A stretch of DNA of 64,000 nt from Trichaptum fuscoviolaceum (Eukaryota; Basidiomycota; Agaricomycetes; Hymenochaetales; Trichaptaceae), in the NCBI GenBank assembly GCA_910574455.1, contig CAJSYZ010000007.1, positions 5,451,974 through 5,515,973 on the forward strand, given 5' to 3'. The notes under the pieces are model-generated. The model saw only the letters and a list, made by a program, of their open reading frames with translations. It ran no database searches and was not told the DNA's origin. Numbering within the stretch: the first letter of the stretch is position 1; each line of letters opens with the position of its first letter. The translations under genes and the position numbers were made by a program. Shown here one piece after another: positions 875 to 39,978 of this stretch.

Positions 875-2996
875 ATGTCTCTACTAGTCGCCGTTCTGCT
901 TCTTCAGAGAGCTGGGATATCCGCCATGCCTACCATCTCCTCCAACGTTTCAGAGGCACTCACCCATGATCCTTCCTTCGATATCGCAACCTCCCCCGCG
1001 GAGAGAACGCTTTGGGACATCCTTTGGAGCTGCTTGGCAACCACATTCGCGTGCACTTGGGTTTCAGTTCATCCAAATATACCTTGCTTCCAGGAGAGCA
1101 AGTCGTCTAAAACATTGTTGCGCTTATATTTTACGCTTATCTCGTTCCTTGCTCCGGAAATCACGACATTTTGGGCATTTAAACAATTACTTGGAGCATG
1201 GGCAATCAAGAAGGCGGTGAATGATAGTTACTGGATGAAATGTGGGCTACCGCCGATCTTCCTTTTGTAATACAAATTGACATACTTTCATAGTCATTAT
1301 GAAGAAGAAAGTGGGCGGACCAGGTTCAAACATCAACTCAAGTGAGCTAATGCTCTTTTCATTGCTACTCTGATAACTTACAGTCTTTCTCCAGCCGATA
1401 CGGGCACACATAATCTCGGAGAGGCAGAGATAACGTCAAAATATGAAGTCAAAGGTTCGTGTGAACTACAACATGTCTTAATTCCATAGTCCAACTAAGG
1501 ACGCTACTAGATAACTCACCATTTTGGACTCTTACTCATGCGCACTACCTTCAAATGGGCGGATACCGACTGCAGTGTCTTCTTGATGAGAAGGACAAAA
1601 TTCCTTCACTCTTCGGTAGAGAAACGACCGCCGTCCTCGCCGGGAGAAATCGTAGAATCTGGGAACTCCCTCTATCGTATGAACCGATGAAGGAAGCATT
1701 CAATAATAGGTTAATCGACATACCGTTCATCTCAATGGACGAATTGGTTAACCAAAATGGTAGGGACTGCTTGTCAAAGGGGCTCGCTATGTTGCTACTC
1801 TCCTGGTTCATCTTGCAAATTGCTGCACGCATACGTCAGAATTTTGCCATTACGGTGTTTGAACTGACGACGGCTACTCTGGCCGGTTTCAATATCGTGA
1901 TGTACATATCGTGGTGGAGCAAACCCGCGGATGTCCATTATCCAACTCGCATAACGACTAAGGCCCTGCAGAAACAAATGCTCCAGTGGACCGCCGATGA
2001 CGCCCTACATTCCCCACTTGATTCGTCACCCTGCCAACCATCCGCTGGATCTTCCGCATCACCATCCATTGAAGACACACATGGCACCCTAGTACCTTCA
2101 CGTGCTGTATCAACAGCCACAATTGACGCAGATGTCGCCGATGGCAAAGATGTGCGGTACGTCATAGAGCTATCAATGGTCAGATCAGTCTTACGAGTCG
2201 CTTGTGGAAGATGGAGTGGAAAGCACTATTAGAAGGTCCCGGAGTTCGAGCCAATAAAACAGCTAAGGAAATTGTGGACAGTTTCCGACGACACCGGAAC
2301 TCGCATCGGGAAGGTGTATTGAAGCGTTCGCCCAAAGAAATCGGACAGTGGATACGCTCGACATTGATAATTCTCTGCATGATGCCTTTGGCGTTTACCT
2401 ATATTCCTACACTGGCTATAACAGGCAGCGGAAGAAGACAGGCTTGCAACCACGCCGAGATAGTCCACAACCCCACCGCAGACGGCATGACGACACCCCA
2501 GGGAACAGTATTCGCCCGCAGACTGCTCACACTGATGGACACAATCTTCTTCTGCGAAGATGTCGTGAGTGCACAATTGCTCTGCCTCTCAGCACTATCG
2601 GGGGCAATATTTGGAGGAATTCACTGCTTAGCGTGGAACTTCACCTTTCCCTCCGACGTCGAGCAGATTTTATGGCGCGCATCTTCATCTGTAATATCCG
2701 GTATCTGCGTTTGCGTCGCAGTCGCAGCCCTTTTAAATAACCTACAAGCATTTCGGCTTTCGCTTTTGGTCAATCCCAAAGGTTTGTCTGACCATAGTAT
2801 TCTCAACCCGCGTGTCAGTGGTGTATCTTATATTGAAGGGGTTGTATGCATGATATTCGCCTTCTGTTTTCTTTTAAGCCGTCTTTCTCTTCTTACCCTT
2901 TCCGTAGCACAGTTTCGGGATCTCCCTGCGTCGGCGTACCACGCTGTCGAGTGGCTGAAAATTCCCGCTACCCCTTGGGTAGCTGGGTATTCTTAG
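875..2996 (+). pseudogene. Paralogue A of a basidiomycete multi-pass membrane protein family, frameshifted and element-tailed
   Basis: This is the first of three tandem paralogues. Exons can be joined in frame: 875-1241, 1294-1341, 1395-1454, and from 1511 on. The protein has a hydrophobic N-terminus, the family block RTLWDILWSCLATTFACTW, SVHPNIP, APEI..FWAFKQ, and after the introns FWTLTHAHYLQMGGYRLQC and ELTTATLAGFNIVMYISWWS. The large exon of B and C is uninterrupted, but in A the frame changes between about 2157 and 2232. A 32-nt intron could join the frames but is unusually short, so a frameshift is likelier. The membrane-rich C-terminal half continues to 2996, where the last 10 residues come from an inserted element. 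The ancestral stop is at 4544-4546. The family's function is unknown to me; membrane location is inferred from the hydrophobic segments. Confidence 0.75.
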
Positions 2997-3112
2997 GGTA
3001 TGCAACTGTCCGCCGCGCCCGCCAAAAGTCAAAAGGTCACGTGAAATTGCCTGTAAAGGGAATTCCTTCCTCTTAAGGAAGGCATTCCATTGGAAACTTC
3101 TGATGACAAGCG

Positions 3113-4127
3113 ATGACGCAATCTGAGACATTGCGCCGTGTCCTCGCCATCGTCGCCAACGTTCAACGTGTGTACTCTTCCTTCTCCTTTCCTCAGAGTC
3201 GGACTCACATATTGACACTCCTAATGGCGACGCGTCCTCGTGAGTTTCTTTCTGATTCCTACATGTAAATGACATTGCTAATATTTTGTGTTTTTGTCAA
3301 TCTTCTACGACTTGACCTGCCAGGATCTGCCGCCCACCTTTGAAGACCCGCACTCCGCTTTCTTTGCTCTCCTCCTTCAGCTCATACTCAATGTCTCCCA
3401 AGACCGTTCGGTGTGGCTCGTAGCCAGTGTCTATCTCAAGAACACGATCAAACGGCGATGGGAGGATGAGAACTCGCCTTTGGCGGACGCAGAGAAGACG
3501 CAGCTGAAGGGTCAGCTGGTCCCTGCAATGATCGCGCTTTCGAGTCCAGCGGACAAGACATTACGAGCGCAGGTTGCGGAGGCCGTGTCCATTCTCGTCA
3601 AGTACAATTTCGGAGGCCGTGTCCATTCTCGTCAAGTACAATTTCCTCGAGCAGTGGCCTGATCTCATCGTCAGCTCGTCTCTTCACTCTCGCCCGACGC
3701 TGCAAATGATCCAACAAACATCTTTGTTCTCGAAACTGCCCACTCGATCTTCGCGCCTTGGCGTTCTGAAATACGCTCAGACTCGCTCTTCACGACGATC
3801 AACTTCATTTTGAGCCGCTTCTCGGGCACCCTCCTCCAAATCTTCAAACACACCGCCAGCAATCTTCTGAATGGGTCGGGAACTGAAGCGATGGCGCAGG
3901 CTGAGGTTGTGCTTCTGTCAATCTTCTACGACATGACGTGCCAGGATCTGCCTCCCACCTTTGAAGACTCGCACTCCGCTTTCTTTGGCGCTGAGCAGGG
4001 AGTGCTCACCAAGTTCCTTGCTTGGGACCTCGAGATCATGCGCGGTGATCCTAACGATTTGACTCCCTCTTTCCTCACCCAAATCAAAACGTCGATCTTC
4101 GAGCTTGCCAAGCTTTATACCCATTGA
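3113..4127 (+). pseudogene. Rearranged CSE1 (exportin-2) fragment in H1
   Basis: CSE1 returns importin-alpha to the cytoplasm. Recognisable N-terminal HEAT-repeat sequence includes LNVSQDRSVW, YLKNTIKRRWE, GQLVPAMIALSSP.DKTLRAQVAE and QWPDLI. Around 3920-4125 the later block FYDMTCQDLPPTFEDSHSAFF and FLTQIKTSIFELAKLYTH appears. The order is abnormal: a copy of the later 'FYDLTCQDLPPTFED.HSAFF' block (3294-3365) precedes the earlier 'LLLQLILNVSQDRS' block. A 34-bp direct repeat at about 3576-3643 breaks the frame, with further frameshifts after 3660. A short open exon beginning ATG at 3113 (MTQSETLRRVLAIVANVQR) precedes a GT intron; I cannot assign it. Not functional. Confidence 0.8.
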
Positions 4128-4132
4128 TACCC

Positions 4133-4385
4133 GGAGGCCCGCAGTCGTTGGGCAGGACGGCAATGGGGGTGATGTCGTACTTGTGCGCCGGACTGGGTTG
4201 GGTATGTCTGGGTGAGCAAGGGCGAGGACAGGAAGTGGACCTGTGGCTGCTCAGGCGGGTAATCCACTACGAGGCCATCTGCGGTGATGTGATCAGGCTT
4301 GACCCGTGACCAGTGCACTGGTGGACACTGCTTTGGTTGCTGGGGATGACATCTACTTTGCATGCCACCTTCTTGGGCAGTCGAA
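4133..4385 (+). pseudogene. Unidentified captured fragment, shared with 39.4-39.7 kb
   Basis: This stretch matches about 39450-39725 closely (for example the gggcaggacg, tgtgcgccgga and cttcttgg areas), but neither copy has a long frame and I do not recognise the source gene on either strand. It is adjacent to the Helentron 3' subterminal region in both places, so it is part of the element's cargo rather than of the surrounding locus. Confidence 0.5.
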
Positions 4386-4530
4386 GTCCGCAATGGATTC
4401 AAATGTACAGATAGTAAAGTAATAGTCTTTTGTATCTAAAAATGATTTCTTCTTTCTTTAAGTAACACTTCATACCCATCTCCGGGTAGCGGGCTCTGCT
4501 GTGAGGAACTCGCAGCCACTAACTGCTTGT

Positions 4531-4546
4531 TTTCCCTCATATTTAG
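4531..4546 (+). other. Displaced last codons of paralogue A
   Basis: The bases after H1 read, once joined to the codon split at 2961-2962, I-F-P-H-I-stop. Paralogues B and C end F-I-P-H-V and F-I-P-H-I at the same position. These 16 bases are therefore the original end of gene A, separated from it by the 1.57-kb insertion. Confidence 0.8.
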
Positions 4547-4587
4547 ACAAAATGGATCATTCCCGCTACACCCTAGCGGGTTCTAAT

Positions 4588-5968
4588 TCCCGCGAACCGT
4601 AGGGTTCGCTTGGGTACCTTAGGAAAACGCAACTGTGTCGATTCTCAGCGAAAACTGATCCGATCACGTGAATTGCCTTTATGGGTAATTAACCCTTTTA
4701 GGCAGGAGATCCAGTCATGTGATAATCTACTTTAAACAGAAGGTTGTTTCCACGCATTCTTGGCTACGCCTTTGTCGCCAACTTGAATGCATAACGTGTA
4801 TAGCAGCTCAACACAGTCATCAGCTTCTGCAATGGGGTTGCGCATAGCCCGCAAGCGAGTCGGGCGCGAGGCGCTCCCCATGACGATCTACCGCCATTAG
4901 CCCCAGCATCTCCGTGTCTGCACCCCGCGGCAGTGCCAAAACAACTTTGTCTGCGAGGACATCCAACACTGGACACCAAGTGTGACTGTATGAGGTGCAG
5001 TGAGCATTGTAGCTGCCGGAAACAAACTGCTCAAGCACAGTCGATCCCGACTGGTCTTGCTGCATGTCCAAGGTCGAATTGCGGCGCATGGGTACTTGTC
5101 ACGGGCTTTGAGTGGGCACACCGCGTTGTATTGCAGATTATTTAATTGAAAGTCGGCGCGAGGAACGAAGCTGGGTCGTTGGCGGCGGGACTGGGAATGG
5201 TGTCTTTGCAAATGTCGCTAGTGGAAGGTGCGTCTATTTTACTGCATTAACATATTGCTTCTTTACTGTGTATTCTAATGGGACTGTTTTGGCTACTTTT
5301 GCTTTCCATATTCAATAGAAGACGGTGTCCATGTTGTACCGGAGGGGACACAGAAGGATGCACCACCATAGTACACCGCTACTCAGGCGGATGCTGTTCC
5401 GACGCACTGGGAGACAAGGCCATGCGCCTTGTCCTTATTGCCGGGAATGATGCTTCCAGGCAAGCTCTCGATTGATGGTCTCGCTCGCAACGGACACGCT
5501 CTTCTCATTTGCTTGGAACATGCTTGTTTCTATTTCCATCCAATTTGTGGGCTTTCTGCTTACTTACCTCCTGCATACTACACATGCGGTGAAGCTCAGT
5601 GCTCGTGCTGGTCTTGGCTTGATGCTGGTTCAATATGTGTTTTGCATTGAGGATGGGCAAGGATGACGAAGGCATAGGCACAAATGGTGAAGAGAGCATG
5701 TGGGGCGGCGGGGGAAATCCTGAGGACACTGTACCTTTACCGACACTGATGTTTGATACAGCTGCGGCTGCTGAAAGTTGGGCAGCTTCTCACAATGGGA
5801 CTCTTCCTGTGGCAGATGCTTCTGCGGCAGCAAGAGTATGGTGTATAATACTTCTGTACTGTATGTGTGCTTAAAAATATAATGTTTTCTTCCTCTCACT
5901 CTCACTCTAACCGCATTCCCGGGTAGCGGGCTTTGCTGTGAGTTAGCTCACAGCCTTTAACTGCTTGT
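4588..5968 (+). mobile_element. Helentron-like element H2 carrying a BSD2 fragment
   Basis: It starts T^TCCCGC with the perfect hairpin GCGAACC-GTAG-GGTTCGC, followed by the 5' subterminal sequence GGGTACCTTAGGAAAACGC shared with other elements. It ends with GGGTAGCGGG (5921-5930), the hairpin GCTGTGAG-TTAG-CTCACAGC (about 5935-5954) and ACTGCTTGT (to 5968). Its length is 1,381 bp. It is closely related to the element at 26312-27575 and to the inverted copy at 37994-39284. An AATAATGTTTTCT-like motif precedes the 3' repeat, as in the other copies. Confidence 0.75.
5180..5860 (+). pseudogene. Captured BSD2 / NEDD4-interacting (NDFIP-type) fragment in H2
   Basis: BSD2/NDFIP proteins are three-pass endomembrane adaptors that bring ubiquitin ligases of the Rsp5/NEDD4 type to cargo. 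Pieces appear in order: NGVFANV (about 5196), an intron, EDGVHVVPEGTQKDAPP then an in-frame TAG (about 5372), QADAVPTHWE, and the membrane core FSFAWNML then FVGFLLTYLLHTTHA and RAGLGLMLVQY. The C-terminal part ends around FDTAAAAESW. The upstream stretch 4810-5130 is cargo I cannot assign. The TAG and later frame breaks make it non-coding. The same TAG occurs in the 26-27 kb copy. Confidence 0.8.
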
Positions 5969-6179
5969 AGCGTACTGACTTGCACCTTTCAAAAGCAAAA
6001 CCTTATTTATCATGTGATTTAAGGTCTGGACCGGTCTTCGGGGAATATAAAGATCCGGTGAGTCAACTTGACGCATCGGAACCGAATACTAGTAATGTCT
6101 CGGATGTCCCCGAGAATCGTCTTCCTCACTATGACCTCCTCTTCGTCGCCCTTGCTTTCTGCCTCGTCCCCGACTACCA

Positions 6180-7545
6180 CAAACAAGCAGAACAAAATAT
6201 ACTTTCCCTATCCTTGCTCTCATTTTTCAATGTCTCCCATGACCATTCGGTGTGACTTGCAGCCTGAAGAACATGATGAAACAGCGATGGGAGGATGAAG
6301 ACTCGCCTTTGGCTGAGACAGAGAAAGCACAACTGAAGGGTAAGCTGGTCCCTGCAATGATCGCACTTTCGAGGTTCAATATACAAGACATTACAAGCAC
6401 AGGTTGCAGAGGCTGTGTCCATTGTCGCAAACTATGGTTTCACCGAGCAGTGGCTAGATCTCATCGATCAGCCCGTTTCTTCACTCTTGCCCGACGCTGC
6501 AAATTATCCGACAATCGTCTCTGTTCTCAAAACTGCTCACTCGATCTTCGCGCCATGGCGTCCTGCACTACGCTCGGATTCGCTCTATATGATGATCAAC
6601 TTCGTTTTGAGCCGCTTCTCGGGCACTTTCTTCCAAATCTTCGAACTCACCGCCACCAATCTGCTGAATGGAACGGGAGCTGAAGCGATGGCGGAGGCTC
6701 AGCAAAGTGCTGAAGAAGTACCCAAACAATGAGCTGGCGAAGGTACGGGCTATCTATGATATGATGATGGTTGGTCTTATGTGTTTTGTAGGCCCTGAAA
6801 GCGCTGGCGACGGTGCACATGAATATTCTCTTGTCTTCGAATACCGTACCGGCATCTGTCACAGCGCTGTGGAGACTTCTTGATGGAGGTCAGAGATCTG
6901 CAATGGTGTATGACGGACTGGTCTGCCAGTGACTACGCTTCCTCAACACGGACATCCGGTCAGGAAACTATAAGGCGACGTTTGCGGAGAGGGAGACGAT
7001 TAAGGTTGTGATCAAAGGCGTAGTCTTACCCAGTGTCACATTACGAGGTGCGCAAGCTTTTTTCTTTCTTAACGCTCATCTTTACTGATACTGTTTTGAC
7101 CCGCAGAGTACGAAGTGGAGCAATATGAGGACGATCCTCTGGAGTATGTCCGAGTCGACCTTTCTTTTGCGGCATTTGGTCCATTGGCGGATTGGCTGCG
7201 GAGGGAACCACACGGCGACAAGCTGCGGCATGTCCTCCGTACACTCGTTGCCTCAGGTTTCGAGGCTGAGACGACCGAAGTTGTCTTGATGTTGATTGGG
7301 AACGGACTGGAGGAGTACAACAGGAAGAAGGGAGAAGAGAGTTGGAAGAGGAAGGATGAGAGTGTGTGCCTGCTCACGGCGGTGACAACGGTTGGCGCAA
7401 CTGCTCAGGTGAGTGATGCAGCTCTTTCGGCAGGAACAGATACTAATTTTGGAGATCTATAGCAAGGTGTTACAAGCATGAATCCTCTTGTGGACGTCGT
7501 GTAGTTCTCGCGACATGTATACAAGAACCTACAGGCCGGTGAAAA
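6180..7545 (+). pseudogene. Captured CSE1 (exportin-2) segment, front part of a chimera
   Basis: Collinear CSE1 sequence covers the N-terminal third: FNVSHDHS, WEDEDSPLAETEKAQLKGKLVPAMIAL, VSIVANYGFTEQWLDLIDQ, HSIFAPWRPALRSD and FVLSRFSGTFFQIFELTATNLL. Then LRFLNTDIRSGNYKATFAERE (through frame breaks), an intron at about 7047-7105, EYEVEQYEDDPLEYVRVDLSF, LVASGFEAETTEV, and a second intron before QGVTSMNPLVDVV. Kept introns show that genomic DNA, not mRNA, was captured. Several frameshifts and lost stretches make it a pseudogene. It runs straight into AsnRS sequence at about 7550. Confidence 0.8.
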
Positions 7546-7573
7546 TTCACATTTGTTCACATCTTCTACCAGA

Positions 7574-8432
7574 TCTGCAACACTGTAGACAAGCTACTCG
7601 CCGAACGAGAAGCAGCCGCACTCATCAAGCAATTGAACCCTTCTTTCCAAGCTCCGTCACGGCCATTCATGCGACTAGCATATGTGGATGCTATTAGTTT
7701 GCTTAACGACCATGGTATCCAGCATGAAGAAGAGGATGCTGAGGGCAACGTCATCAAAGACGACAAAGGCAATCCCAAGATGGTCGATCACGTCGTTAGC
7801 GAAGATATTGCTGAAGCCGCTGAGCGGCGCTTCCCTGCGGAACTGAAGGCCTTCTACATGAAAAGATGCCATACTCTGGAGAACAAGGTGGAAAGGTGTT
7901 CACCGAGAGTTGTGATCTTCTCATGCCTGGGGTGGGAGAGATTGTTGGTGCGTCTTGATACTTTTTTATGGTCGTCGCGAAAACATGAGAATTGACCTCT
8001 CTTGAAGGTGGATCCATGAGGATTGCGGACACTGAAGAGCTGCTGGCTGGCTACAAGCGTGAAGGGATCGACCCAGAGCCATATTACTGGTACATGGACC
8101 AGTGAAAGTACGGTACGTGCGAACACGGTGGGTATGGGTTAGGCGTTGAGGTATGATTGATCCGAAACTTGTCATATTTCTTTGTCCAATAACACACGAC
8201 CATTTCATTAGCGTTATCTCGCTTGGTTGGCGGATAGGTATACTGTTCGGTAAGTAGTCACCCATAGTTTCATTTTCATTCATTTTCTGAAGACTTCGGT
8301 TCAGGGAATGTTGCTTATACCCGAGGTATGTTAAACATGACTATTTTAATTGTACTGGACTGAAATCAATCGACAGATGGCCAGGCCGTGCGACACCTTG
8401 GAATCTGTTGTAACCCATTTGAAGTTACAGCT
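7574..8432 (+). pseudogene. Captured asparaginyl-tRNA synthetase C-terminal half, rear part of the chimera
   Basis: Cytosolic AsnRS charges tRNA-Asn. The frame starting near 7574 reads NTVDKLLAEREAAALIKQLNP, then RPFMRLAYVDAISLLNDHGI, DIAEAAERR, FPAELKAFYMKR. It then breaks and continues in pieces as SMRIADTEELLAGYKREGID and PEPYYWYMDQ-stop-KYGTCEHGGYGLGVE. After an intron come LAWLADRYTVR, then E-CCLYPR and WPGRATP across two more short introns. These are class II motif 2/3-side segments of AsnRS. A nonsense codon replaces the residue after MDQ and about 15 residues are missing before FPAELKAF. It is non-functional. Confidence 0.85.
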
Positions 8433-8778
8433 TCGTTGTATTTGCTTGGTGTTCAACTTAAATGTACTCACCAATATAGATATGTCCGTATTTGTTTTGA
8501 AGACAAAGCGAAAGGATGGTTCGAACTTCGAACAATCCTGATCATTGTCCTATGATAGCTAAACTGGATGAACCAACGAAAGATTGTTATCGAAGAAGAG
8601 TTGTCCTGTGAGAAAACAATGACCGAGATGACAGCAATCGCAGGATTTCCGGAAATACAAGAAGAATAGGGGATATCAGCGTTGCGGAGCAACTGTAGAA
8701 TGCCTTTCTCAATCTAATGAAATAAAACAAACCTGGGTAGCGGGCTCTGCTGTGCACCCACAGCGTTCGCAATTATGC

Positions 8779-12820: not shown

Positions 12821-12855
12821 AATCAGTGACCGTTGAACGACTTCAATCCATCGAT

Positions 12856-15405: not shown

Positions 15406-15430
15406 TATAGCAGGAATCACAACAAACATA

Positions 15431-27575: not shown

Positions 27576-28289
27576 TCCCGCGAACCGTAGGGTTCGCTTG
27601 GGTACCTTAGAAAAACGCAACTGTCCGGATTCTCTGCGAAAACTGATCCAGTCACGTGCAATTTCTTTTATGGGTAAGCGACTTATAAGTCAATTTCGAT
27701 CACATGCTGATGACAAAGATACCAATCCGCCATCGTCGCCAACGTTCAACGTGTGTCGTCTTTCTTCTCTTTCTTCGGGCTCACAAACAGACACTCCTAA
27801 TGGCAACGCGTCCTCGTGAGTTTCATACTGATTTCTCTTTCATCTATTCTACATGTCCCTAACATTGCTAACATTTTGTGTTTTTGTCAATCTTCTACGA
27901 CTTGACCTGCCAGGATCTGCTGTCGGGATCCCCCAGGACCCCAACATGTCTAAGGCAATCCCGAACAGAACCCGGTATACTGAAACCCGAAATCGCGACC
28001 TTGGCTAGATCCCGAAAGGATCCCCCGCTCTCTGATCCCGGAAGAACCTCTGCTTCGCCATGCATTCTCCTGCTAGAGTTCCGCCCCGCTACGACCTCCT
28101 CGCCCCTGCTTGTCCTCGCCCACGTCTCCTCGTCAGTCCCCCGCCTCGTCCCCGTGTCTCGATCCATCCCTAGCCCGCCTCGTCGTTCCCCCGACTCTAG
28201 GATGATCCCCCGCTCGCTCCCCGCTCCCGTCATGCTCTGTTCCCCGCCCCAGCGAACTCCGTACCTCGCCATAGTCCCGAAGTCACTCA

Positions 28290-28345
28290 CCATAGCCACA
28301 GCCATAGCCATAGCCTGCCAAAGCCATAGCCATAGCCATAGCTAT
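28290..28345. repeat. CCATAG microsatellite in the LTR
   Basis: About eight units of (A/G)CCATAG with small variations (ccacag, ccaaag). Confidence 0.6.
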
Positions 28346-28954
28346 CCCAGACCTCGTAGGTTCTCGACTATGCCCGGATACCAGATCCCGGCCTCGCGTC
28401 CACAGTCATGAAGTGCAGTTAGGAGATTGATCCACTGCGTCCAAAGCCGACCTCTGTCTGGCCTTGAGTAAGCCAACACGACAGCGGTCAAGGATTGCTG
28501 TCCCGCAATCCTGCCCGGTCACGAACCCTGCCCTGCGCTCGTCCTGCCACGGTGCCCTAGCTAACCCCTTCGACATCCTGTGCCTCTCGACCTGCCCTTG
28601 TTCGTCCACAGCCTGCCCCGCCAGGAATCCCGCCTCGCCGCGAACGCTGTCAAGCGTCCTCTCTGACAATCCCGCAACCCACGCTCGTTCCCGGTTGGAG
28701 TCCCGTCAAGACTCCCCCACTCGTCCAGGTTGGAGTCCCGCCAAACTCCCCCCGCTCGTTTCCCGACTAGAGTCTCGCCAGACTCCCCCGCTCATTCCCG
28801 GTAGAAACCCCGTTCGCTTCCCGGTTGGAATCCCGCTCCTTTCCCCCGCACGATCCCAGTCGAAAACCCGCTCGTTTCCCGCCTCGCGTCCCGTCTCGAA
28901 TCCCTGCGCAAATCCCCCGCAGGATTCCCGCCTTCGATCCCGCTACGATTCCCG

Positions 28955-29064
28955 GTCGAACCCTGTCTTGATTCCCGGTCGAAACCCGAACTCGATTCCC
29001 GGTCTAAACCCGAACTCGATTCCCAGTCGAAACCCGAACTCGAAACCCGGTCGAAACCCGAACC
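28955..29064. repeat. 24-bp tandem repeat in the LTR
   Basis: Four to five imperfect units of GATTCCCGGTCGAAACCCGA plus ACTC follow one another. The unit shares the ATTCCCG core with the 18-bp repeat near 30.1 kb. Confidence 0.65.
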
Positions 29065-30073
29065 AGATTCCCTGCATGATCCCGTCGCGAATCGCGCGAG
29101 TTTCCCGTTGTCCAAGGGAAACCCCTTAGCTTCCCGCTCCTCGATGCTAACCTCGTCTTGAGATAGCCCCAGGTGATTGGCCTGGCCACGCACGTGCCAG
29201 CCAACTAGTCTCGCTAGTAGCGTCCTGTCCCGGCCCGCAGACCACATTCCCGCCACCCCGTGTGCGGGATTGATCTCATTGTCCGCAAGGACTCGAACCC
29301 CGTCCTTAGTCGCCCGGCCCCGCGCGCGCCTCGCGATTAGGCTTCGTTACGACATCGAAGCACCGGCTTCTTCGAAGTTGGTCCCTGTCAATCTCCCGCG
29401 ACCCTGATCCACGCCAGAAGTTGCCTGCAACTTATCCCGAGACGATGTATGCATTACATCCGCCCCCCACGCTCGTTACCCCGCTGCCTGTGCGCCAGCT
29501 TGATACCTCGCGCACAATTACATTCCTTTAGTTCTCTTTGTTTCACTTGACCATGCTTCACGCTCGTTCCCTTAGATCTTGCCCAGATGTCCCCCGCACC
29601 GAATCCCGAATCCCGGATTCACGTCACTGTATGCGCGGCCTTCGCCCGCAAGATTGTGTAACTAGTTAGTTGCGCGTTTGTGCATGCCCGTTCCCTGTAG
29701 ATTCTGCCCAGTAGATAAATACCTGTCGCCACCGTAAGGAGCACTCACTTTTGTCCTCTTGTCGAGTGCTTCCTTAGGTGTGTTTCTGTCTTGTCTCTAG
29801 TGTAGTTTTACAATGCTAACTTGTCGAGTGCTTCCTTAGTGGAACCTCCTCCTGATACAGAAGTGTTGCCTTGAGATCCCGGTTATCCTGAGCTCTCTGC
29901 TCCCGTCCTGAGCACGCCTGCTCTCTGGCTCTCTGGTCTCTGTCTTGTCCCGGATCCCGCTCTGCGAATCCCGCTCTGAGTCCTGCCCAGAATCCCGCTC
30001 TGAGATTCTCGCCAGAATCCCGCTCTGCGATTCCCGCCAAAGTCCCGAACGATTCCCGCTCTGCGATCCCCGC

Positions 30074-30146
30074 ACGAATCCAGATTCCCGCACGAATCCA
30101 GATTCCCGCACGAATCCAGATTCCCGCGCGAATCCAGATTCCCGCC
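30074..30146. repeat. 18-bp tandem repeat in the LTR
   Basis: Four near-identical units of GAATCCAGATTCCCGCAC. Related ATTCCCGCTCTG units precede it from about 29950. Confidence 0.7.
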
Positions 30147-32439
30147 AGAATCCCGCTTTGCATTTCCCCGCGTCTCGACTCTGCCTTCCCAGCCTCGACT
30201 CTGACTCCGTCCCGTCCTCACCTTGAGCCCCCTTGCGTCTCGCCCCCGTAGCCCCGCTCCCCGCGCGACTCCGTTGGCGTTGTAGCGTCCTTAACGGTTC
30301 CCCTTCGCCTTCTCCGCTGCCGCGCGCTCTCCCAGGCCTTGCCCCGGCCCCCAGGTTCCCCCCAGGTCGTAACATCTGCCGCCCACCTATGAAGACTCGC
30401 ACCCCGCCTTCTTTGCTCTCCTCATTCAGCTCATACTCAATGTCTCCCAAGACCGTTTGGTGCGCCCCGCAGCCAGTATCTATCTCAAGAACACGATCAA
30501 ACGGCAATCGGAGGATGAAGACTCGCCTTTCGCGGACGCAGAGGAGACGCAGCTGAAGGGTCAGCTGGTCCCTGCAATAATCGCGCTTTCGAGTCCAGTG
30601 GACAAGACATTACGAGCGCAGGTTGCGGAGGCCATGTCCAGTGTCGCAAAGTATGATTTCCCCGAGCAGTGGCCAGATCTCATCGATCAGCTTGTCTTTT
30701 CACTCTCGCCCGAAGCTGCAAATTATTCAACAATCGTCTCTGTTCTCGAAACTGCCGCTCGATCTTCGCGCCTTGGCGTTCTGAAATACGCTCGGACTTG
30801 CTTTACACAATGATCAACTTTGCGGCTTCTCGAGCACCTTCCTCCAAATCTTCGAACACACACCGCTAACAATCTTCTGAATGGATTGGGAACTGAAGCG
30901 ATGCACAGGCTCAGGTCATGCTTCTGTCATTCTTCTACGACTTGACGTGCCAGGATGTGCCGCCCACCTTTGAAGACTCGCACTCCGCTTTCTTTGGCGA
31001 CGAGCAGGGAGTGCTCACCAAGTTCCTTACTTGGGACCTCGAGAACATGCGCGGTGATCCCAACAATTCGACTCCCTCTTTCCTTACCCAAATCAAAACT
31101 TCGCTTTTCGAGCTCGCCAAGCGTTATACGCATCGATACCCGGAGGCCCTCTCGTCTTCGAATACCGTACCGGCCACAGCTCTGTGGGGACATCTCGGTG
31201 GAGGTCAGAGATGTGGGATAGCATGTGACGGGCTGGTCAGTCAGGGACTACGCTTCCTCAGCACGGTCATTCGATCAGGAAACTACAAGGCGACGCTAGC
31301 GGAAAGGGAGATGATTAAGGTTGTGATTAATGGCGTAGTTGTCCCCAATGTCTCATTACGAGGTGCGCAAACTTCTTCTTTCATCGCGCTCATCTTTTTA
31401 CTGATATTATCTTGACCTGCAGAACACGAAGTGGAGCAATTTGAGGACGATCCTCTGGAGTATGTCCGAGTCGACCTTTCTTTCGCGGCGTCTTCTTGGT
31501 CCAGCGGGTTGACTGCGGAGGGAACCACGTGGCGACAAACTGCGGCCGATGTCCTCCGTGCACTCGTTGCCTCAATTTCGAGACTGAGACGATGGAAGTC
31601 GTCTTGACGCTAATAGGGAACGGACCGGAGGATTACAACAGGAAGGGAGACGAGGAGAGTTGGAAGAGGAAGGATGAGAGTGTGTACCTGTTCATGGCGG
31701 GGCAATTGTTGGTGCAGCCGCTCAGGTGAGTGATGCAAATCATTCAGGAGGAACAGTGATTTTGAGGATCTATAGCAAGGTGTTACAAGCACGAATGGTG
31801 CATGTCGTGCAGTTCTTCTCACAACATGTGCACAAGGACCTACAGGCCGATTAGAACTCCGTGCATCCAATTCTCCAGGTTGATGTGATTTGCTTTTTGT
31901 ACTCCTTCCAAAATCAGGTGTGTAATTTTAACATAATAGAATCTTGTCTGCTTGTAACATAGTAGAATATTGTATGTACAGATGTAAAGAAGAAAAATGT
32001 TTTTTTTCTCTAACAATAACCTCACCCATTCACGGGTAGCGGGCTCTGCTGTGAGGAACTCGCAGCCACTAACTGCTTGTTCCCGCTACCCTTAAGGTAG
32101 CTGGGTATCCTATGGCGTATGCAACTGTGTCCGGCGCCTGCCAAATCTCATCCGGTCTCGTGACTTGCAATTTCGGTACCGAAACTGCCTTTCAAAGCAG
32201 GTTGTTCTCACGCGTTTTTGCTGCGTTCTCCTGCCTGTCTGAACAGAACTACGATACCTCACATTATGAAAGTCTCCCTGCTACCTTCTCCTGACTGCCT
32301 GCTAACCGTTGTTGAAGCCGCTGCAGGCCGCCTCCTTTGTTGAAAGAGCTTGTCAATGGGTGGCAAGCAATCCCAACGAAGCGACCAACATGGATCTCAC
32401 GTCCTCTAAACCGCTAGAACTCCCATCGGGAAAGAGGGA

Positions 32440-32945
32440 AAAAGATTATAACTAACATAATCACCCATAATAAGCTAAAATCTCATATATCCGCTACCTG
32501 GGCGACGTAACACATATATTAGGGTAGAATTCAGATACAAGATGTAATCTGTCCGATATATAGTTCTAATCACACGTGAGACTTATGGAGATTATAACCA
32601 ATTCCTAGCCTTGTAATGTCTACATTGTAATAAAATCTCCGTAATCATTATAGCTCTTATATGTACTTGTGAGAGATTATAATGGATTATGAGACTTATA
32701 AGGGCTGGAATGTAATATAATCTTTATGATCATTATGCATATTATAACACATTATGAAGCCTTATATTCAATTATAGACATTATAATCTGCATAATTGCT
32801 TAGAATCACTATCAGAATGATAGCTCATCTACGTGATTATGTGTAAATACATTGGATTATGAGCCTTATGTTCACTAGAAGGTGATAGAACCCTGAGTAG
32901 TTCTTACAGGCCTTCTCACTTGCACGCAAAATAATAGAATAAAAA
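32440..32945. repeat. AT-rich tract with TTATAAT-type words
   Basis: Dense repeats of words such as gattataat, attatga and cttata occur, with no gene. A similar tract lies at 36830-37100, on the other side of the kinase-COPB2 block. They may be the ends of another decayed element that brought the two gene pieces in. Confidence 0.4.
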
Positions 32946-32959
32946 GCAGATTATATTAA

Positions 32960-34480
32960 TTTAGTACTAGCTACATACAAGAAACCCACACTGTCAAAGA
33001 CAAGATCGTAGAACATGACGCCAACGGAGAAACCGTTGGCAAGAGTAGTAATACGACGACCGAGGATCTCTTTGACTCTGAGGCCAACTGCGAGACGATC
33101 CTCTCGCAGATCGGAGAGAACGCTGGCGGCTGCATGAAGATGGGCGAAAAGCAGGCTGGAAATTAATTCCCTGGTCGCCAGCAAAGGGGGGCGAGGAACT
33201 CGTACTCAGCGGGGTCAGGACGCCAGCGCATGAGAGCCTTCGGGTCGTCGACAAGGACGCACATGCTGAGGTACGCACCTTCCTGGATCTTATGCATCAC
33301 AGTTTTCCACCCGGCAGGGACAGGCTGTGTCTTATTTGCGACCTGATCCCAGCTTCTGCGGCGGAGGTTAGCTAGAGAATGGCGTAGATGGGGGTGGTCG
33401 ACTTACACTCCTCGGAAGTACCGGCTCTGCAAGGTATCCTGCATCGGGATGCGGTGGTCTGGGTTCTTAGCTAGCAGACGCCGCATCAGATTGCATGCCT
33501 CTGGGAAACGCTTGCGGAACCGTCGAGGGATGAACATATTTTCGTACAGTGCGTTGGCCTCAAGATCCTTGCGATCCCTCCCACAGAAGGGCAGCTAATA
33601 AAGGCGGTGTCAGTGAGGGTGATGGGTTGGAACGGACGAAGCTCACTCTGCCAAAGACAAGCTCATAGAACATGACGGAGAAACTGTCGGCCTTGTACGA
33701 GTAATGGTCGCCATGAAGCATCTCTGGTGCCATTTAGTCCGTCGTGCCACACTTGCCCTTAGTCCTGTGCCAATAGTCATCGTAAGTTAGTATCTCGTCA
33801 ATGCTTACCGCATGTCCTTTGAAAACGTGTGCGAGGCCAAAGTCCCCGATGACGAGCCGAACTTGCTCATCCATGAAGACGTTGTCCGGCTTGAGGTCGT
33901 GATGGACGATGACCTGATTGTGCAAGGTGCCCACGGCATAGCACTACGAAAAAATATGAGACACAACTTGGGGGAAAGGAAGCGGAGACTTACAATTTGC
34001 GCCATGATGAGCTTGATTTCATGCATGCGGAACAGCTTCTTCACGTTGGTCATCGCTCCTCGCAAGATACCACCGGCTGCCAGACCTTGGATGATGATGA
34101 AGTTGTGCGGGTCCATGAAGGATTATGGTGTAAAATAGGTCAAATTAAGCAAAGTCAAGTCAGAAAGGATCTTCTTCTCCGTAAACAACATCTCCCGAAT
34201 GTCTCGGTCGACACCTGCTTGACCGCGACCTTCTTGTCGTATTCGCGATGAGAGATGTCCACGGCCTGGTAGATACGGCCGAACCCGCCTTTTCCAAGGA
34301 CAGCTTCAAGCTTGTCGTCAGGTCGTTTACAAAGATCCTCGCGGGCGAGCTTCGCGGTGTCAACGACCATCGCTGTGCGTTGAGGGGTTGGTCGATGATG
34401 AAGAGACGCGGCACCCGCGTGACACTGCCACCGTGCCACAGGTGTGACGCACAGTGCAAGCATACAGTCACACTCGGGTG
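32960..34480 (-). pseudogene. Captured Ser/Thr protein kinase, decayed
   Basis: Minus-strand exons in order: glycine loop VLGKGGFGRIYQAVD with AVKQV (34300-34200), FIIIQGLAAGGILR, MHEIKLIMAQI, catalytic loop HHDLKPDNVFMDEQ, metal site DFGLAHVF, then GKCGTTD-stop-MAPEM (activation segment, about 33735), SFSVMFYELVFG, LPFCGRDRKDLEAN, and later KNPDHRIPMQDTL and WDQVANKTQPVP. Key catalytic residues (K, HxDLK, DFG, APE) are still readable, but TAA sits between GTTD and MAPE and other frames are broken. A second copy of the SFSV.MFY.LVF exon appears at about 33040-32990. Not functional. Confidence 0.8.
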
Positions 34481-34734
34481 GCACACCAGTAAATCATCAG
34501 ACAAAGACACAAATCATGATAAGAGTATGAAAACATACCAATTACAACAAAAATACGAAATTTGAAGGCCATCCTGTGGATGGATGGGGAGAGACAAAAC
34601 TGGATGGAGGATGAGGAAGTGGGAGGAGAGAGAGAGTGGGGGGGAAGGGAACTTGTTGAACGCGACGCGTCACGCAAAGGTAATTCAAGTTCAAACTCCG
34701 CAGCATCATCACGCCCTCAACTTGAAATTGCTAA

Positions 34735-36730
34735 GTCCGTAAAACCACTCACGAGAAAGTGACTGAAGTCAAGGCCCATCCTGACTACATTCGAGGCCTC
34801 GTTGTTCACCCAACACTTAGCATTGTGCTGACGGGCTGCGATAATATGACAATCAAAGCATGGGACTGGGATAGACAGTGGAAGTGTATTCGTGTGCGTA
34901 CCTCTACCGCTTCAAAATCAGACCCAGTCTAATTATCTCTGAAGGTTTTCGAAGGACACACGCACTACATCATGAACCTTGTATTCAACCACAAGGAAAA
35001 CAACACCTTCGCCTCCTCTTGTCTTGATCGCACCGCAAGAGGTTGTCTCTCGGCTCCACGCCGCCGAATTTCACCCTCGAGGCACATCAGAAGGGCGGCG
35101 TGAACTACGTCGACTTCTAACCCGGTGACAAGCTGTATCGAGCGGTGACGACCGAATCATCAAAATCTGGGACTACCTCAGCAAATTTGTGTACAGACGA
35201 CGGAGGGACACACTAACAACGTCTCGTTTGCCCTGATCCACCCTAGTCTTCCTTGATTGTCAGCGGTTTGGAGGATGGTACGATTAAGATCTGGATCTCG
35301 GGCACGTACCGTCTGGAAACTACCTTAAGCAACGCTCTTGAACGCGCATGGTACATCGCCATCCGACCGCAGGGAAGGAGGTTGGCGTAGGGTACGACAA
35401 TGGTGTGGTCGTGGTCAACCTTTGCCGTGACGAGCCTTCCGACAGCATGGACCCATCAGGCAAACTGGTGTTCACCCGCAACACAGAAGTCTTGTCTGTC
35501 AACTTCCAAGGCGCTGCGAAAGACGAGACGCCTGAAGGACAACGCATACCGCTGTCTGCGAGAACTCGGTACGACTGAAAATTTCGCGCTTTATGACCGT
35601 GGTCGCAGAAGGAGAGTATATCATCTATACTGCGCTGGCCTGGCGAATCAAGGCGTTTGGCAGCGGTTCTTCCTTCGCATGGGCAATAGACTCGACCACG
35701 TACGCTGTGCTGGAGGGACGGACGAGGGTGCGGGTGTACAAGGACTTCAAGGAGAGGAGTAGTCGGGCAATGAAGTGTGCTGGGATTGTGGCCAGTTGAA
35801 GGGTTGCATGGCGGCCCTTTCCCAGGTGCTCGTGGAAGTGGTTTTGTCGTCTTCTGGGACTGGGAGTCTGGTGAGATCGTGGCCATCATCGTCGACGACT
35901 CATTCTACGTCCTGTGCTTCGACTGTGAGGCGTGCAACGTAGCGTAGGAGGCTGAGGTAGACATAGGAGATGAGGGTGTTAAAGAGGCATTTGATGATGT
36001 CGCAGAAATTTCTGAAAGGTATGATTTTTTGTTCATATTTTCCCGTCAAGACCTCGAAGTAGATCGGCGATTGCTTTATCTACACGGATGACGCTAAGCG
36101 GCAGTGAAATACAGACCTTAGCACATTTCGATAAGCAAGTTTCTTCCTTTTCTCCTCGATTTCTACACACTGACAAGGTCTGATAGCCCAATGTACCAGC
36201 TGGCCTACATCACCGCTCATCTGCGTGTATCTTGCCGATAAAGACATTGAAGAGTTCGGTTACTTCCTGTCTTTGAACCTCACCGAGTATGAGAGTGCAA
36301 TCCTGCGTGGGGATGTGGAGGCTGCGGAGGAGATTCTGCCAACTGTACCAAAAGAGCAGTGGAGTAAAGTCGCTCGTTTCCTAGAAGCTCGGGGTACGTC
36401 TTTGGCAATCATCAAATTCAACAGAAAACCTGACTTGATTGCTCTCCTTTTCACAGATCTTGAGGAGCTCGCGTTACAGGTTAAAACAGACCCTGATCAC
36501 AAGTTCGACCTCGCGCTTCAAATCGACGATTTGGACGCCGCCCTTGAGATCGCGCGTACAAAGCCCGAAAACGAGGCAATTACGAGATAGAAGGCTGTCG
36601 GTGACCGCGCGCTGGCCGTCTGTTCGACCTCGCATGGGAATGCTTTGAGAATGCGGGAGACCCGAGTCCGCTCCTCCTGGTGGTACGCGACCGGGATGGT
36701 CTCACGAACTTCCAGGACCCTGCATAGTCT
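34735..36730 (+). pseudogene. Captured COPI beta-prime subunit (COPB2/SEC27), decayed
   Basis: COPB2 is a WD-repeat coat protein of Golgi-to-ER vesicles. Collinear blocks: HPDYIRGLVVHPTLSIVLTG and DNMTIKAWDWDRQWKCIR, an intron, VFEGHTHYIMNLVFN, NNTFASSCLDRTA, then EGHTNNVSFALIHPSLP (through breaks), SGLEDGTIKIW, STYRLETTL-type sequence, LERAWYIAIRPTAGKEVGVG, DEPSDSMDPSGKLVFTRNTE, TPEGQRIPLS, GEYIIYTALAW, FAWAIDSTTYAVLEGRTRVR, LADKDIEEFGY, AAEEILPTVPKEQWSKVARF, DPDHKFDLALQIDDLDAALE and VGDRALAV. Many frameshifts and stops. Retained introns show capture of genomic DNA. Confidence 0.9.
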
Positions 36731-37169
36731 TACCTTGTGAAGTGTTAGCTTCTTAGTATAGCTCCTCTGTATAATCTGAAAAAATTGAGAATGCAATGAC
36801 TTTTAAAACTTGCATTTCTGGTAATACTTCGTAAGACTAACATCTGAATTGTATCACTCTTATAACAGTGCTATATGCCTTTCAGATAATTGTATGACAT
36901 TTTAGCAAAATATATGATGGACATAATTATGATACCATTCTTACAAGGGGACTATCAGCAAGATAGCAGGATTATAATGTCAGAGTAAGCCTTATGGAGG
37001 ATTATATTCTATCGAAAGCATTATGACGTCTTATAATCACGGTATAAGCCAGATGCCATGTGATAATCTATAATAATCATGACAGCTGAGTTATAATGCC
37101 CGGAATCGTCCGGAATTATATATAAGCTTTTTCCCTTTTTCCTGATGCCGAAGCTTGGACTGTTGACCA

Positions 37170-37460
37170 GGCCCGATGGACAAATACGTCTACTCCAGCC
37201 AGCACCGCAGGCAAGCTTCCATATTCTCCGTTGCCTCCGACTCTTTCTGTCAGACAAAGGTCAAACCCTCCCCGCCCGCCGGTCCATCTTTTCCCAACCA
37301 CCCTCTGTCTCACGCGGTAAAGACAGTGGTAACCGCATCGCGTGTCATCAGGAACATGTCTCTCGGACATCCCACATGATTTGCAACCTTACCCAAAAGA
37401 AGATTCCCAGACAGTGCTATGAGGCACTCCAGTACATATTCATAAAAGGGACAGGCTTGT
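37170..37460 (+). other. Unassigned piece at the end of H7
   Basis: A short frame beginning MDKYVYSSQHRRQASIF runs to 37379. I recognise no family. It is probably another scrap of cargo. Confidence 0.25.
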
Positions 37461-37618
37461 AATGATAGTTCTGTATATATGTCTAAAGAATATAATGTTC
37501 TCTATTTTCTTCCCATAACACTTCATACCTATCCCTGGGTAGCGGGCTCTGCTGTGAGGAACTCGCAGCCTCTAACTGCTTGTAAGTCCCTCATAGTATT
37601 TCCGCCGGTTCGGTGATG

Positions 37619-37993
37619 GGGTACCTTAGGAAAACGCAACTCTCCGGATTCTCTGCCAAAACTCATCCGGTCTCGTGACTTGCACTTTCGGTACCGAAAC
37701 TGCCTTTCAAAGTAAGTTGTTCTCACGTTTTTCTTCAACCCGTCGCCGGATGGCCAGATGCCACTTATCTAACTTCTTACTACTACTGCTGCTGTGCTGC
37801 TCATCGGGCTACTCGACGGTGCGCACGGCGCATGCAGGAGGAAGGCGAGCGCCCGGATTGAACTATCCCTGGGTCGACATCGTGAATGGGCCTTACGGGT
37901 AAGGCGGTCTCCTAGGCACGGCACCGCTGAACTTGGGAGGCGGCGACACAACGCCGTCGCTCTCGTTTGACTCGGACAAGGACATGTTGTGGA
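37619..37993 (+). other. H4 5' subterminal region and unassigned cargo
   Basis: GTACCTTAGGAAAACGCAAC and the following 100 bp match the 5' subterminal parts of the other elements (compare 32110-32210). From 37750 a short frame, MARCHLSNFLLLLLLCCSSG, looks like a signal peptide followed by APGLNYPWVDIVNGPYG. It ends before a GT-like site. The source gene is not recognised. Confidence 0.4.
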
Positions 37994-39284
37994 AAAAGCA
38001 GTTAAAGGCTGTGAGCTAACTCACAGCAAAGCCCGCTACCCGGAAATACGGTTAGAGCAAGAGTGAGAGGGAGAAAAAAATCATATTTTTAAGCACACAT
38101 ACAGTACAGAAGTATTATACACCATACTCTTGCTACCGCAGAAGCATCTGCCACAGGAACAGTCCCATTGTGAGTAGCTGCCCAACTTTCAGCAGCCACA
38201 GCTGTATCAAACGTCAGCGGAGGTGGAGGTACAGTGTCTTCAGGATTTCCCCAGCCACCCCACATGCTCTCTTCATCATTCGTGCCTATGCCTTCGTTAT
38301 CCTTGCCCGTCATCAAGGCAAACCCATACTATTGCAGCAGCGGCAGGCCAAGACCAGCACAAGCATCGAGCTTCGCCGCATGTGTGGTATGTAGGAGGTA
38401 AGTAAGGAGAAAGCCCACAAATTGGAAGGATAGAAATGAGCATGATCTAAGCAAATGAGAAGAGTGTGCCCGTTGCGAGACCATCAATCGGGCGCTTGCC
38501 TTGAAGCATCATTCCCAGCGATAAGGACAACTCGGAAGGCGCATGGGCTGCCATCTCCCAGTCTGTCGTCTCCTGTCCGGCAGGACAACATCCGCCTGAG
38601 CGGCGGCGTGCAATGGTGGTGCATCCTTGTCTGTCTCCTCCAGTATAACATAGACACTGTCTTCTATTGAATATGGGATGCAAAAGTAGCTGAAATAGAC
38701 CCGTTAGACTACAAAGTAAAGAAGCAATCTGTTGATGCAGCAAATTAGGCTCACCTTCCACTTTGGCCTTGGAGAGGCTCAGTTTCGCAGTGACATTCGC
38801 AAAGACACCATCATTCCCAGTCCCGCCGCCAATGACCCGCCTTCGTTCCTCGCGCCGACTTCCGTTAAGCAACCTGCAATACGGCCAGGGAGGACGCGGC
38901 GTGCCCACTCAAAGCCCAGGCCACGTACCCATGTGCCACGATTCGACCTTGGACATGCAACAGGACCAGCTGTGCTTGAGTAGTTCGCCCCGTGTTTCCG
39001 GCAGCTACAATGCTCACTGCATCTGATACAGTTGCACTTGGTGTCCGCTCGTTGCCAGTGTTGGATGTCCTCACAGACAAAGTCGGCTTTGCACCGCCGC
39101 AGGGTGTAGACACGGAGACACTGGGCTGATGTTGCTGACTCGGATGGCGGGCGGTGGAGTCAAAAACGCGTGGAAACAACATGCTATGAAAGGTAGCTAT
39201 CACATGACTGTATCTCCTTCCACAAAGGGTTAATTACCCATAAAGGAAATGTCACGTGACTGGATCAGTTTTTGCAGAGAATTC
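37994..39284 (-). mobile_element. Inverted, 5'-truncated Helentron-like element with BSD2 cargo
   Basis: Read on the minus strand, it has the 3' end GGGTAGCGGGC, the hairpin GCTGTGAG-TTAG-CTCACAGC and AACTGCTT (ending near 37994). It runs through BSD2 cargo to the 5' subterminal ATTCTCTGCAAAAACTGATCC at about 39284. The first 55 or so bases (TCCCGC hairpin and GGTACCTTAGG) are missing. It is the only member in this orientation. Confidence 0.65.
38095..38850 (-). pseudogene. Captured BSD2 fragment, inverted copy
   Basis: The minus strand reads GTGNDGVFANVTAKLSLS, an intron, EDSVYVILEETDKDAPPLH, then MLQGKRPIDGLATGTLFSFA, a break, and NPEDTVPPPPLTFDTAVAAE. At the codon where H2 and H5 have TAG this copy has TTG, so it comes from a different branch. 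It lacks most of the three membrane spans after FSFAW because the frame is lost. Confidence 0.75.
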
Positions 39285-39295
39285 CATAGGCAGGC

Positions 39296-39725
39296 ATGGC
39301 GGAAGACGACAAACCTGCACCCCACGCGGCATGGCTGTTCTGGACGATGCGGGGAGTGGATGCTCTCCCACAGCTGCTTGCTCCGCTTTTTGGTTTGCTC
39401 GTCTTACATCGCGCCTCGAAGTCGTCGTGGGTGCGGCCCGGGCAGCCGCTCTCGAGGAGGGTGCAGTCGTTGGGCAGGACGACAATGAGGACTCAATCAT
39501 ACTGTGCGCCGGAGTGTGTTGGGTATGTCTGGGTTAGTGATGGCGTGGGCGGGAAGTGGACCTGGGGCTGATCGGTCGGGTAGGGCAATACAGGTGTCGA
39601 GGACCTGTTGGCCCGCTACTGCGACCACTTGAATCTACCTCCCATCTTCAAGGCCATTTGCGGTAATATGATCAGGCTTCGGCTGCTGGGGGGCGACATC
39701 TACTTTACATGCCACCTTCTTGGAC
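39296..39725 (+). pseudogene. Unidentified captured fragment, related to 4133-4385
   Basis: The longest frame (39296-39571) reads MAEDDKPAPHAAWLFWTMRG and onward, but only its second half is shared with H1. No domain was recognised on either strand. Confidence 0.35.
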
Positions 39726-39892
39726 AGGCTCATAACCTGAGGAATCACTCAGTATTAGTGGTAGAAAACTCCATTGTATGGTATCACGCCAACTTCACTC
39801 TTTCCAGTACCCACCTTACATTGACTTATGTCTGTATGTATGTTGAAGGAAAAATAAAATCTTTTCTCTTTCTTTTTGTAACTTTACTCTCA

Positions 39893-39978
39893 TCTAGTGG
39901 GCTTTGCTGCGAGTAACTCACCACCCATCACTGGGTAGCGGGCTCTGCTGTGAGGAACTCGCAGCTTCTAACTGCTTG
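39893..39978 (+). repeat. Two Helentron 3' termini in series
   Basis: A worn terminus (GTGGGCTTTGCTGCGAGTAACTCACCA) lies just before a complete one (GGGTAGCGGG at 39934, hairpin, AACTGCTTGT to 39978). Both match the element-end consensus. Confidence 0.6.

Follow-up and report, generated by a model that had tools for sequence, protein, structure and literature searches.

Elements of the window, their termini and target

The window considered here is the whole stretch of 64,000 nucleotides of Trichaptum fuscoviolaceum DNA at C7:5451974-5515973, in a genome of which 59.1 Mb in 12 contigs (C1, C2 and so on) were searched. Between positions 2962 and 39978 it contains seven transposable elements possessing both ends of one family, together with an eighth, inverted copy whose 5′ end is short by about 50 bp (Table 1). 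The initial annotation had described a dense group of at least seven elements with the same ends; the density and the number were borne out, and the ends require one correction, in that six of the seven possess the main 3′ end, AACTGCTTG, and the remaining one a second terminus. Two of the seven have been split by later insertions: the outer element, and the second-subfamily element, which consists of a 5′ stub (4560-4586) and a body (5969-8775) with element E2b in between, 27 bp inside its 5′ end. The window is very probably a Helitron hotspot: its elements are non-autonomous, have ends of the Helitron2 type and would be moved by the RepHel protein of autonomous elements of about 23 kb carrying the same termini. 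The observations behind this reading are termini common to these copies and to RepHel elements, an A^T target, the lack of a target-site duplication (at one site), retained introns, high copy number and exact head-to-tail junctions.

The 5′ end of the family is TTCCCGC followed by a hairpin, as the initial annotation had it. The DNA folds of four 5′ ends (-9.5, -9.4, -9.6 and -8.4 kcal/mol) were equaled by 0, 0, 1 and 0 of 200 shuffles, respectively, and the hairpin is preserved through paired changes, its arms being GCTACCC/GGGTAGC in E1, GCGAACC/GGTTCGC in E5 and GCGACCT/AGGTCGC in E4. At the 3′ end the 5′ terminal sequence recurs in inverse form, followed by a palindrome and then by CTTG. 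When the first ten bases after TT were compared with the inverse repeat near the 3′ end, all ten matched in E1 and E6 only, nine in E4 (where both ends share a variant), in the outer and in the second-subfamily element, and eight in E2b and E5. The repeat lies 31-40 nt from the 3′ terminus in the four copies measured.

Within the window TTCCCGC occurs 23 times, compared with a mean of 6.1 and a maximum of 13 in shuffled sequence, while GGGTAGCGGG with at most one mismatch occurs 18 times (mean 1.8, maximum 6). AACTGCTTGT, again with at most one mismatch, is weakly enriched, with 12 matches, six of them exact, against a mean of 4.9 (1 of 100 shuffles was as high). Since ten of the 23 and four of the 18 lie in an unrelated GC-rich insertion (27921-30374), the genome-wide counts constitute better evidence. 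The exact 3′ terminus CAGCNNNTAACTGCTTGT is present in 257 copies and a degenerate 5′ pattern in 92, and the reversed-pattern control gave none in either case; the ends are thus found well beyond this locus, as the initial annotation proposed to check. The second 3′ terminus, which ends in GTTCGCAATTA before the T at 8776, also recurs (78 candidates, 40 scored, most alignments ending near query position 137), and the first 100 bp of E1 are present with 100% identity at two other loci.

Insertion had been placed between two Ts, without duplication. Elements E4, E5 and E6 form a seamless array (26311-37582) nested inside a terminal-inverted-repeat (TIR) element (25366-37618), other copies of which supply the empty site. 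Twelve of these span the insertion point (14 matches minus the two halves in the window itself), and all five of the 12 that were read show ATTA-T-AAG, with a single T; the filled site in the window reads ATTAT|TCCCGC ... CTTGT|AAG. The base preceding TTCCCGC is A in 82 of the 92 genomic matches (T in six, G in three, C in one), obtained with a pattern that excludes G five bases upstream and thereby removes most array junctions. The base following CTTG is T in all 100 listed of 245 3′ ends. Exact junctions account for 42 of these 100; the other 58 display 44 distinct flank words, where the base after the T is T in 20, A in 14, C in eight and G in two. The target is A^T, because the empty site has a single T, the 5′ neighbor is mostly A and the 3′ neighbor is always T. 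The single T of the empty site rules out T^T as target, whereas the claimed lack of duplication stands: at this one insertion site there is none beyond one possible T, whose ownership by element or host is ambiguous. The 3′ flank TAGCGTA is common to three elements (window 5968, C1:4750310 and C4:1713733); in the window it is the site 27 bp inside the second-subfamily 5′ end, and its recurrence reflects either repeated use of an insertion site or duplication of the copies.

Table 1. Features of the window; positions are those of the 64,000-nucleotide stretch
Feature	Position	Strand	Evidence
E1, non-autonomous Helitron with CSE1 exon pieces	2962..4529	+	Cse1/IBN_N match; boundaries TTCCCGC...CTTG, flanks A and T
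5′ terminal hairpin, example (E1)	2962..2987	+	DNA fold -9.5 kcal/mol, equaled by 0 of 200 shuffles
3′ end, example (E1): GGGTAGCGGG inverse repeat, palindrome, CTTG	4484..4529	+	8-bp stem; 47 of 200 shuffles fold as well
Second-subfamily (L009-type) non-autonomous element, CSE1 and AsnRS cargo	4560..8775	+	3′ terminus ...GTTCGCAATTA
E2b, non-autonomous Helitron with BSD2 cargo	4587..5967	+	82% over 833 aligned bp to L057
Outer Helitron (25338-25365 plus 37619-39978)	25338..39978	+	Both ends read; TIR element 25366-37618 splits the halves
CA..TG TIR element in outer Helitron	25366..37618	.	28-nt inverted repeat I19, 93%
E4, BSD2-carrying Helitron, array member 1 of 3	26311..27574	+	NEDD4_Bsd2, E=1.9e-10
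Junction CTTG|TTCCCGC, E4/E5	27574..27575	+	Among the 112, C7:5479541
E5, CSE1-carrying Helitron, array member 2 of 3	27575..32079	+	85% to host CSE1 over 1548 aligned bp, introns kept
Junction E5/E6	32079..32080	+	Among the 112, C7:5484046
E6, array member 3 of 3	32080..37582	+	5′ end 126/135 identical to autonomous copy L011, its closest
TIR-bounded segment inside E6, kinase (minus strand) and COPB2 (plus strand)	32424..37147	.	I18 inverted repeat, 32 nt, 84%
Inverted BSD2-type Helitron copy, 5′ end truncated	37991..39283	-	82% to E4 over 1296 bp; 3′ end with 1 mismatch

RepHel elements as probable parents

A search of the genome with the profile PF14214 returned 27 Rep copies falling into several groups. 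Subgroup A1 comprises four RepHel copies (L009, L011, L015 and L028), and the family 5′ end is present in all four: that of L015 resembles E1 (89/104 identical positions), those of L011 and L028 resemble E6 (126/135 and 110/125) and that of L009 the second subfamily (110/125). The downstream ends were followed in L015 and L028, and in both the family 3′ terminus closes the element, giving lengths of 23,009 and 23,105 bp; in L028 it lies 20 kb downstream of the RepHel gene. Both 3′ ends abut a further element, and the motif matches include no other recognizable family end between the termini of either copy. The two are colinear, with about 66-84% DNA identity across much of the first 15 kb and 65-71% identity between the RepHel proteins, in which two well-aligned pieces show proportions of synonymous differences (pS) of 0.78 and 0.85 against nonsynonymous proportions (pN) of 0.21 and 0.20. 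In L015, RepHel occupies a single open frame 2,240 codons long, with Pfam matches to DUF6570, Helitron_like_N and PIF1; the same scan of the whole frame gave no match to an endonuclease domain. Stretches that we take to be the HCH, paired-tyrosine and Walker-A-like motifs are visible in its translation, and a PDB sequence search with RepHel gave no match. The RepHel frames of L009 and L011 are also open (2,222 and 2,308). The initial annotation had advised looking for a Rep-helicase, often with an endonuclease, having the same ends; RepHel elements with both ends were recovered (L015 and L028), and the Helentron-type endonuclease is unmatched in the L015 frame. Judged from these sequences, A1 RepHel elements of about 23 kb are probably the parents of the window elements. 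Groups A2, B, C and D were rejected as parents on the basis of one copy each (L012, L019, L025 and L035), which lack the family 5′ end; coverage extended no less than 4 kb to the 5′ side of the Rep domain and about 6.5-8.5 kb beyond it, so that a 3′ end 20 kb away would escape.

L015 and L028 share further conserved frames besides RepHel. A multi-exon gene on the minus strand resembles JmjC very weakly (E=0.041, short of the cut-off); its best exon shows a pS of 0.96 against a pN of 0.08, and two other pieces are under weaker constraint (pS 0.73 and 0.71, pN 0.35 and 0.35). A TET/JBP-like frame (pS 0.82, pN 0.21) reaches E=0.0041 in L015 and 0.14 in L028, both below the cut-off; among its 31 relatives PF12851 is present in one, and the name Fe2OG dioxygenase is given to one and prolyl 4-hydroxylase to two. 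Pfam analysis of five frames of the L015 element yielded one weak match only. Named relatives are all from agaricomycetes, RepHel pointing to Trametes and Collybiopsis and a second element-encoded frame to Lentinula, Psilocybe and others. Another family, group C, has eight RepHel copies (L020-L027) with Rep domains identical to one another when rounded (100%), a hint that a different Helitron was active recently.

Arrays, captured genes and competing explanations

The proposed course of events, which draws on the established behavior of Helitrons, is as follows. The RepHel nuclease would nick at the 5′ end, peel off one strand and halt at the 3′ signal, the element ends being marked by the 5′ terminus and its inverse copy. 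Were the 3′ signal bypassed, flanking host DNA with its introns would be carried along, and a later 3′ end would close a new, capture-bearing element. Captured CSE1 and BSD2 pieces would then have multiplied as high-copy subfamilies. In the least certain step, to which we give about an even chance, new copies would insert at the A^T of a resident 5′ edge, generating CTTG|TTCCCGC arrays.

Seamless head-to-tail junctions, CTGCTTGTTCCCGC, number 112 in the genome (control: one), and among the 100 listed 3′ ends, neighbors separated by less than 6 kb share a strand in 37 pairs and are on opposite strands in four. Insertion at the A^T that an element retains on its 5′ side would yield exactly such junctions. 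The strongest competitor on this point, somewhat less probable in our estimation, is that the arrays arise via unequal recombination or the integration of circular multimers: the junctions run head-to-tail, and circular Helitron intermediates have been reported and tied to tandem insertions in the available text of the Fusarium oxysporum study (PMC5148889). The cargo of the array in the window differs from member to member (BSD2 in E4, CSE1 in E5, TIR cargo in E6), which a multimer of a single element does not explain. A bolder version of the resident-edge reading, which we consider doubtful, is that RepHel prefers resident 5′ edges and so builds seamless arrays, that frequent skipping of internal 3′ ends creates composites and captures host DNA, and that capture and amplification are built in, aided by the putative chromatin-demodifying dioxygenases of the 23-kb autonomous element.

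The claim that the cargo derives from at least five conserved genes with introns kept was substantiated insofar as CSE1, AsnRS, BSD2, kinase and COPB2 pieces are all present and the two CSE1 introns examined were both retained with their boundaries; for the kinase and COPB2, however, the pieces are housed in a nested TIR element and not directly in the Helitron. Genome-wide there are 139 Cse1 (PF08506) matches (358 candidates, 111 scored) and 114 Bsd2 (PF10176) matches (119 candidates, all scored), several of which can come from one element. They were therefore considered as clusters on C1-C3, 30 for Cse1 and 16 for Bsd2, using partial lists of ends (the exact pattern, and 40 of 78 candidates for the second end). 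In 25 of the 30 and 14 of the 16, respectively, the same strand has a family 3′ end no more than 3 kb downstream; the 25 consist of 21 with the main type and four with the second. Strand-flipped controls gave 0 and 0, and random placement means of 0.17 and 0.10. The remaining five Cse1 and two Bsd2 clusters each include one apparent host gene (C3:5093157 and C3:3252746), and a second near-full-length Bsd2 match is found at C8:2528259. The sequences thus support capture of CSE1 and BSD2 by Helitrons; extrapolating from clusters per match on C1-C3, pieces of each have spread to perhaps 90-100 places.

The CSE1 pieces in elements are 81-95% identical to the host gene and 78-97% to one another, with the two pieces of E1 showing 93.5% and 85.6% identity to host CSE1. 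A piece from host position 2018-2094 or thereabouts precedes the one starting near 1502 in E1, E5, L005 (twice), L006, L007, L045 and L046; this rearranged order was not seen in L003, L004 and L008 as fetched, and L001 contains the first piece only. This common rearrangement is a sign of one founding capture; the second-subfamily element of the window, being without it, may stem from a separate one. BSD2 cargo in three copies is 82-83% identical to the host-type locus L057 over 820-843 aligned bp. The AsnRS piece of the second-subfamily element matches an AsnRS in PDB with E=7e-24.

A pack-type TIR transposon might instead be the real capturing agent throughout, with the Helitron ends hitch-hiking, and we regard this as improbable. 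It would account for the COPB2 and kinase pieces of the window, which sit in a TIR-bounded segment (32424-37147, with CC on both sides); the enclosing TIR pair rules them out as direct Helitron cargo here, and their position inside a nested TIR element means that they are probably not Helitron captures. Furthermore, COPB2 gives 128 domain matches genome-wide, and at the two loci read (L067 and L068) neither family ends nor the window TIR occur within 5.4 kb. Against it, inverted repeats of at least 14 nt are absent within E1, E2b and E4, and 5969-8775 has only one 17-nt pair, 275 nt apart. L067 (C2:823200-828600) and L068 (C9:1123700-1129100) show COPB2 pieces followed by further frames, which presumably are pentatricopeptide repeat (PPR)-like, and L068 includes a kinase piece; they are 87% alike over 4 kb, and constitute a second carrier of gene fragments without Helitron ends in view. 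Copies of the larger TIR element at L047, L049, L050 and L051 are flanked by 2-bp duplications (AA, AC, TT and TG); the copies read among L047-L051 measure about 1-1.5 kb, and that in the window, swollen by nested Helitrons, is 12 kb.

Certain findings weigh against the interpretation of the window as a Helitron hotspot served by A1 RepHel elements. Rolling-circle movement and end bypass are steps that we infer. Folding support for the 3′ palindrome, part of the structure first annotated, is mixed, because up to 47 of 200 shuffles fold as well (47, 4, 3 and 22 for four copies), and the inverse repeat, perfect in E1 and E6 only, suggests that strict pairing is not required. In L028 the RepHel sequence is split among three frames and contains about 1 kb of additional sequence, leaving L015 as the only copy with both ends and an open RepHel frame. 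The GCGAACC-type 5′ end was on none of the RepHel copies examined, and four RepHel copies of other groups are without family ends in the stretch read. Lastly, some copies probably come from segmental duplication: identical 3′ flank words are found at C1:5193248/5196640 and C3:5400314/5402545, and again at C1:18364/22246 and C2:123472/119587, which suggests that duplications inflate the element counts. That the cargo copies are segmental duplications or ordinary pseudogenes with incidental termini is very unlikely, for although the first of these sets does have common flanks, the 58 listed non-junction 3′ ends carry 44 distinct flank words and CSE1 and BSD2 pieces adjoin a family end far above random.

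The 2.45-kb GC-rich insertion that interrupts E5 (27921-30374) has TG...CA ends and a 5-bp duplication, TCTGC (27916-27920 and 30375-30379), and by these looks like a solo long terminal repeat; similar sequence is present in L001 and perhaps in L067. Three related-looking open frames (1465-2229, 13476-15020 and 20082-21737) have in common the stretch TLTHA.YLQMGGYRLQC and form a local gene family. Pfam analysis of ten further window frames (these three, one other and six inside or beside elements) gave no match.

Comparison with known Helitrons

On sequence features the family is a Helitron2-like, non-canonical fungal Helitron. As in the Helitron superfamily generally, elements with the same termini encode a RepHel protein (Rep plus PIF1-like helicase) and target-site duplication is absent (one site, five of five empty copies, at most one ambiguous T). 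An asymmetric terminal inverted repeat (8-10 of 10 positions) and hairpins at both ends, with mixed folding at the 3′ end, are shared with Helitron2, whose target, given in the portion of PMC5148889 available as TTTT on one side and T or C on the other, is not observed. Canonical Helitron1 has the A^T target seen here and lacks terminal inverted repeats, which are present in this family; its 5′ TC and 3′ CTRR are not matched, the 3′ end being CTTG and the 5′ end ambiguous between TC and TTC. The initial annotation had read the ends as Helentron/Helitron2 hallmarks. A rolling-circle family with Helitron2-like ends is consistent with this, and the label Helentron fails. That these are true Helentrons, RepHel-endonuclease elements inserting at T^T, is highly improbable: subterminal inverse repeats and a 3′ palindrome are indeed described for Helentrons/HINEs in the accessible text of PMC4067079, as are high-copy non-autonomous partners, whereas the endonuclease domain and TT target described there have no counterpart in the 2,240-codon RepHel, at the empty site or in the A that precedes TTCCCGC. 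The earlier observation is thus partly confirmed, and its interpretation partly supported.

The closest likeness is to FoHeli1 and FoHeli2, the non-canonical, Helitron2-like elements of F. oxysporum. According to the parts of PMC5148889 at hand, these possess hairpins at both ends, an inverse 5′ repeat that precedes the 3′ terminus by 38-51 bp (compared with 31-40 nt in the four copies measured in this family), insertion after AT with the same TC/TTC ambiguity, and self-insertion producing double 5′ ends; they are about 5-6 kb long, compared with 23 kb for the autonomous elements in this fungus. That text records 27 putative captures across all FoHelis, without evidence of an important role for capture in F. 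oxysporum, judges tandem FoHeli1 unlikely and notes one FoHeli4 2 bp from another; T. fuscoviolaceum, by comparison, has high-copy CSE1 and BSD2 subfamilies and 112 seamless junctions. HELPO1 and HELPO2 of Pleurotus ostreatus are similar by description in their AT target and, for HELPO2, the CTTG end; in the available account (PMC4289320) intact elements are without P. ostreatus gene fragments, and the word "tandem" is absent from its main text. A TET/JBP-bearing Helitron2 of Agaricus bisporus, as described in the part of PMC12730594 available, is an Agaricales Helitron with a dioxygenase gene, and a TET/JBP-like frame occurs in the two 23-kb elements; this likeness is by description, the match here being far below the curated cut-off. 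Titles and abstract openings of the literature, which leave subscription papers mostly uncovered, gave no report of fungal Helitrons that capture host genes in high copy or form seamless arrays.

For annotation, the consequence is that in this genome a match to a CSE1, BSD2 or COPB2 domain mostly marks a fragment and not an intact gene. What sets the family apart from the systems above is that, in a fungus, it combines ends of Helitron2 type and a target of Helitron1 type with autonomous elements of 23 kb, dense capture and arrays. With probable autonomous partners and an empty-site comparison in one chromosome-scale assembly, it makes gene capture, the growth of arrays and the recognition of ends testable in a fungus.

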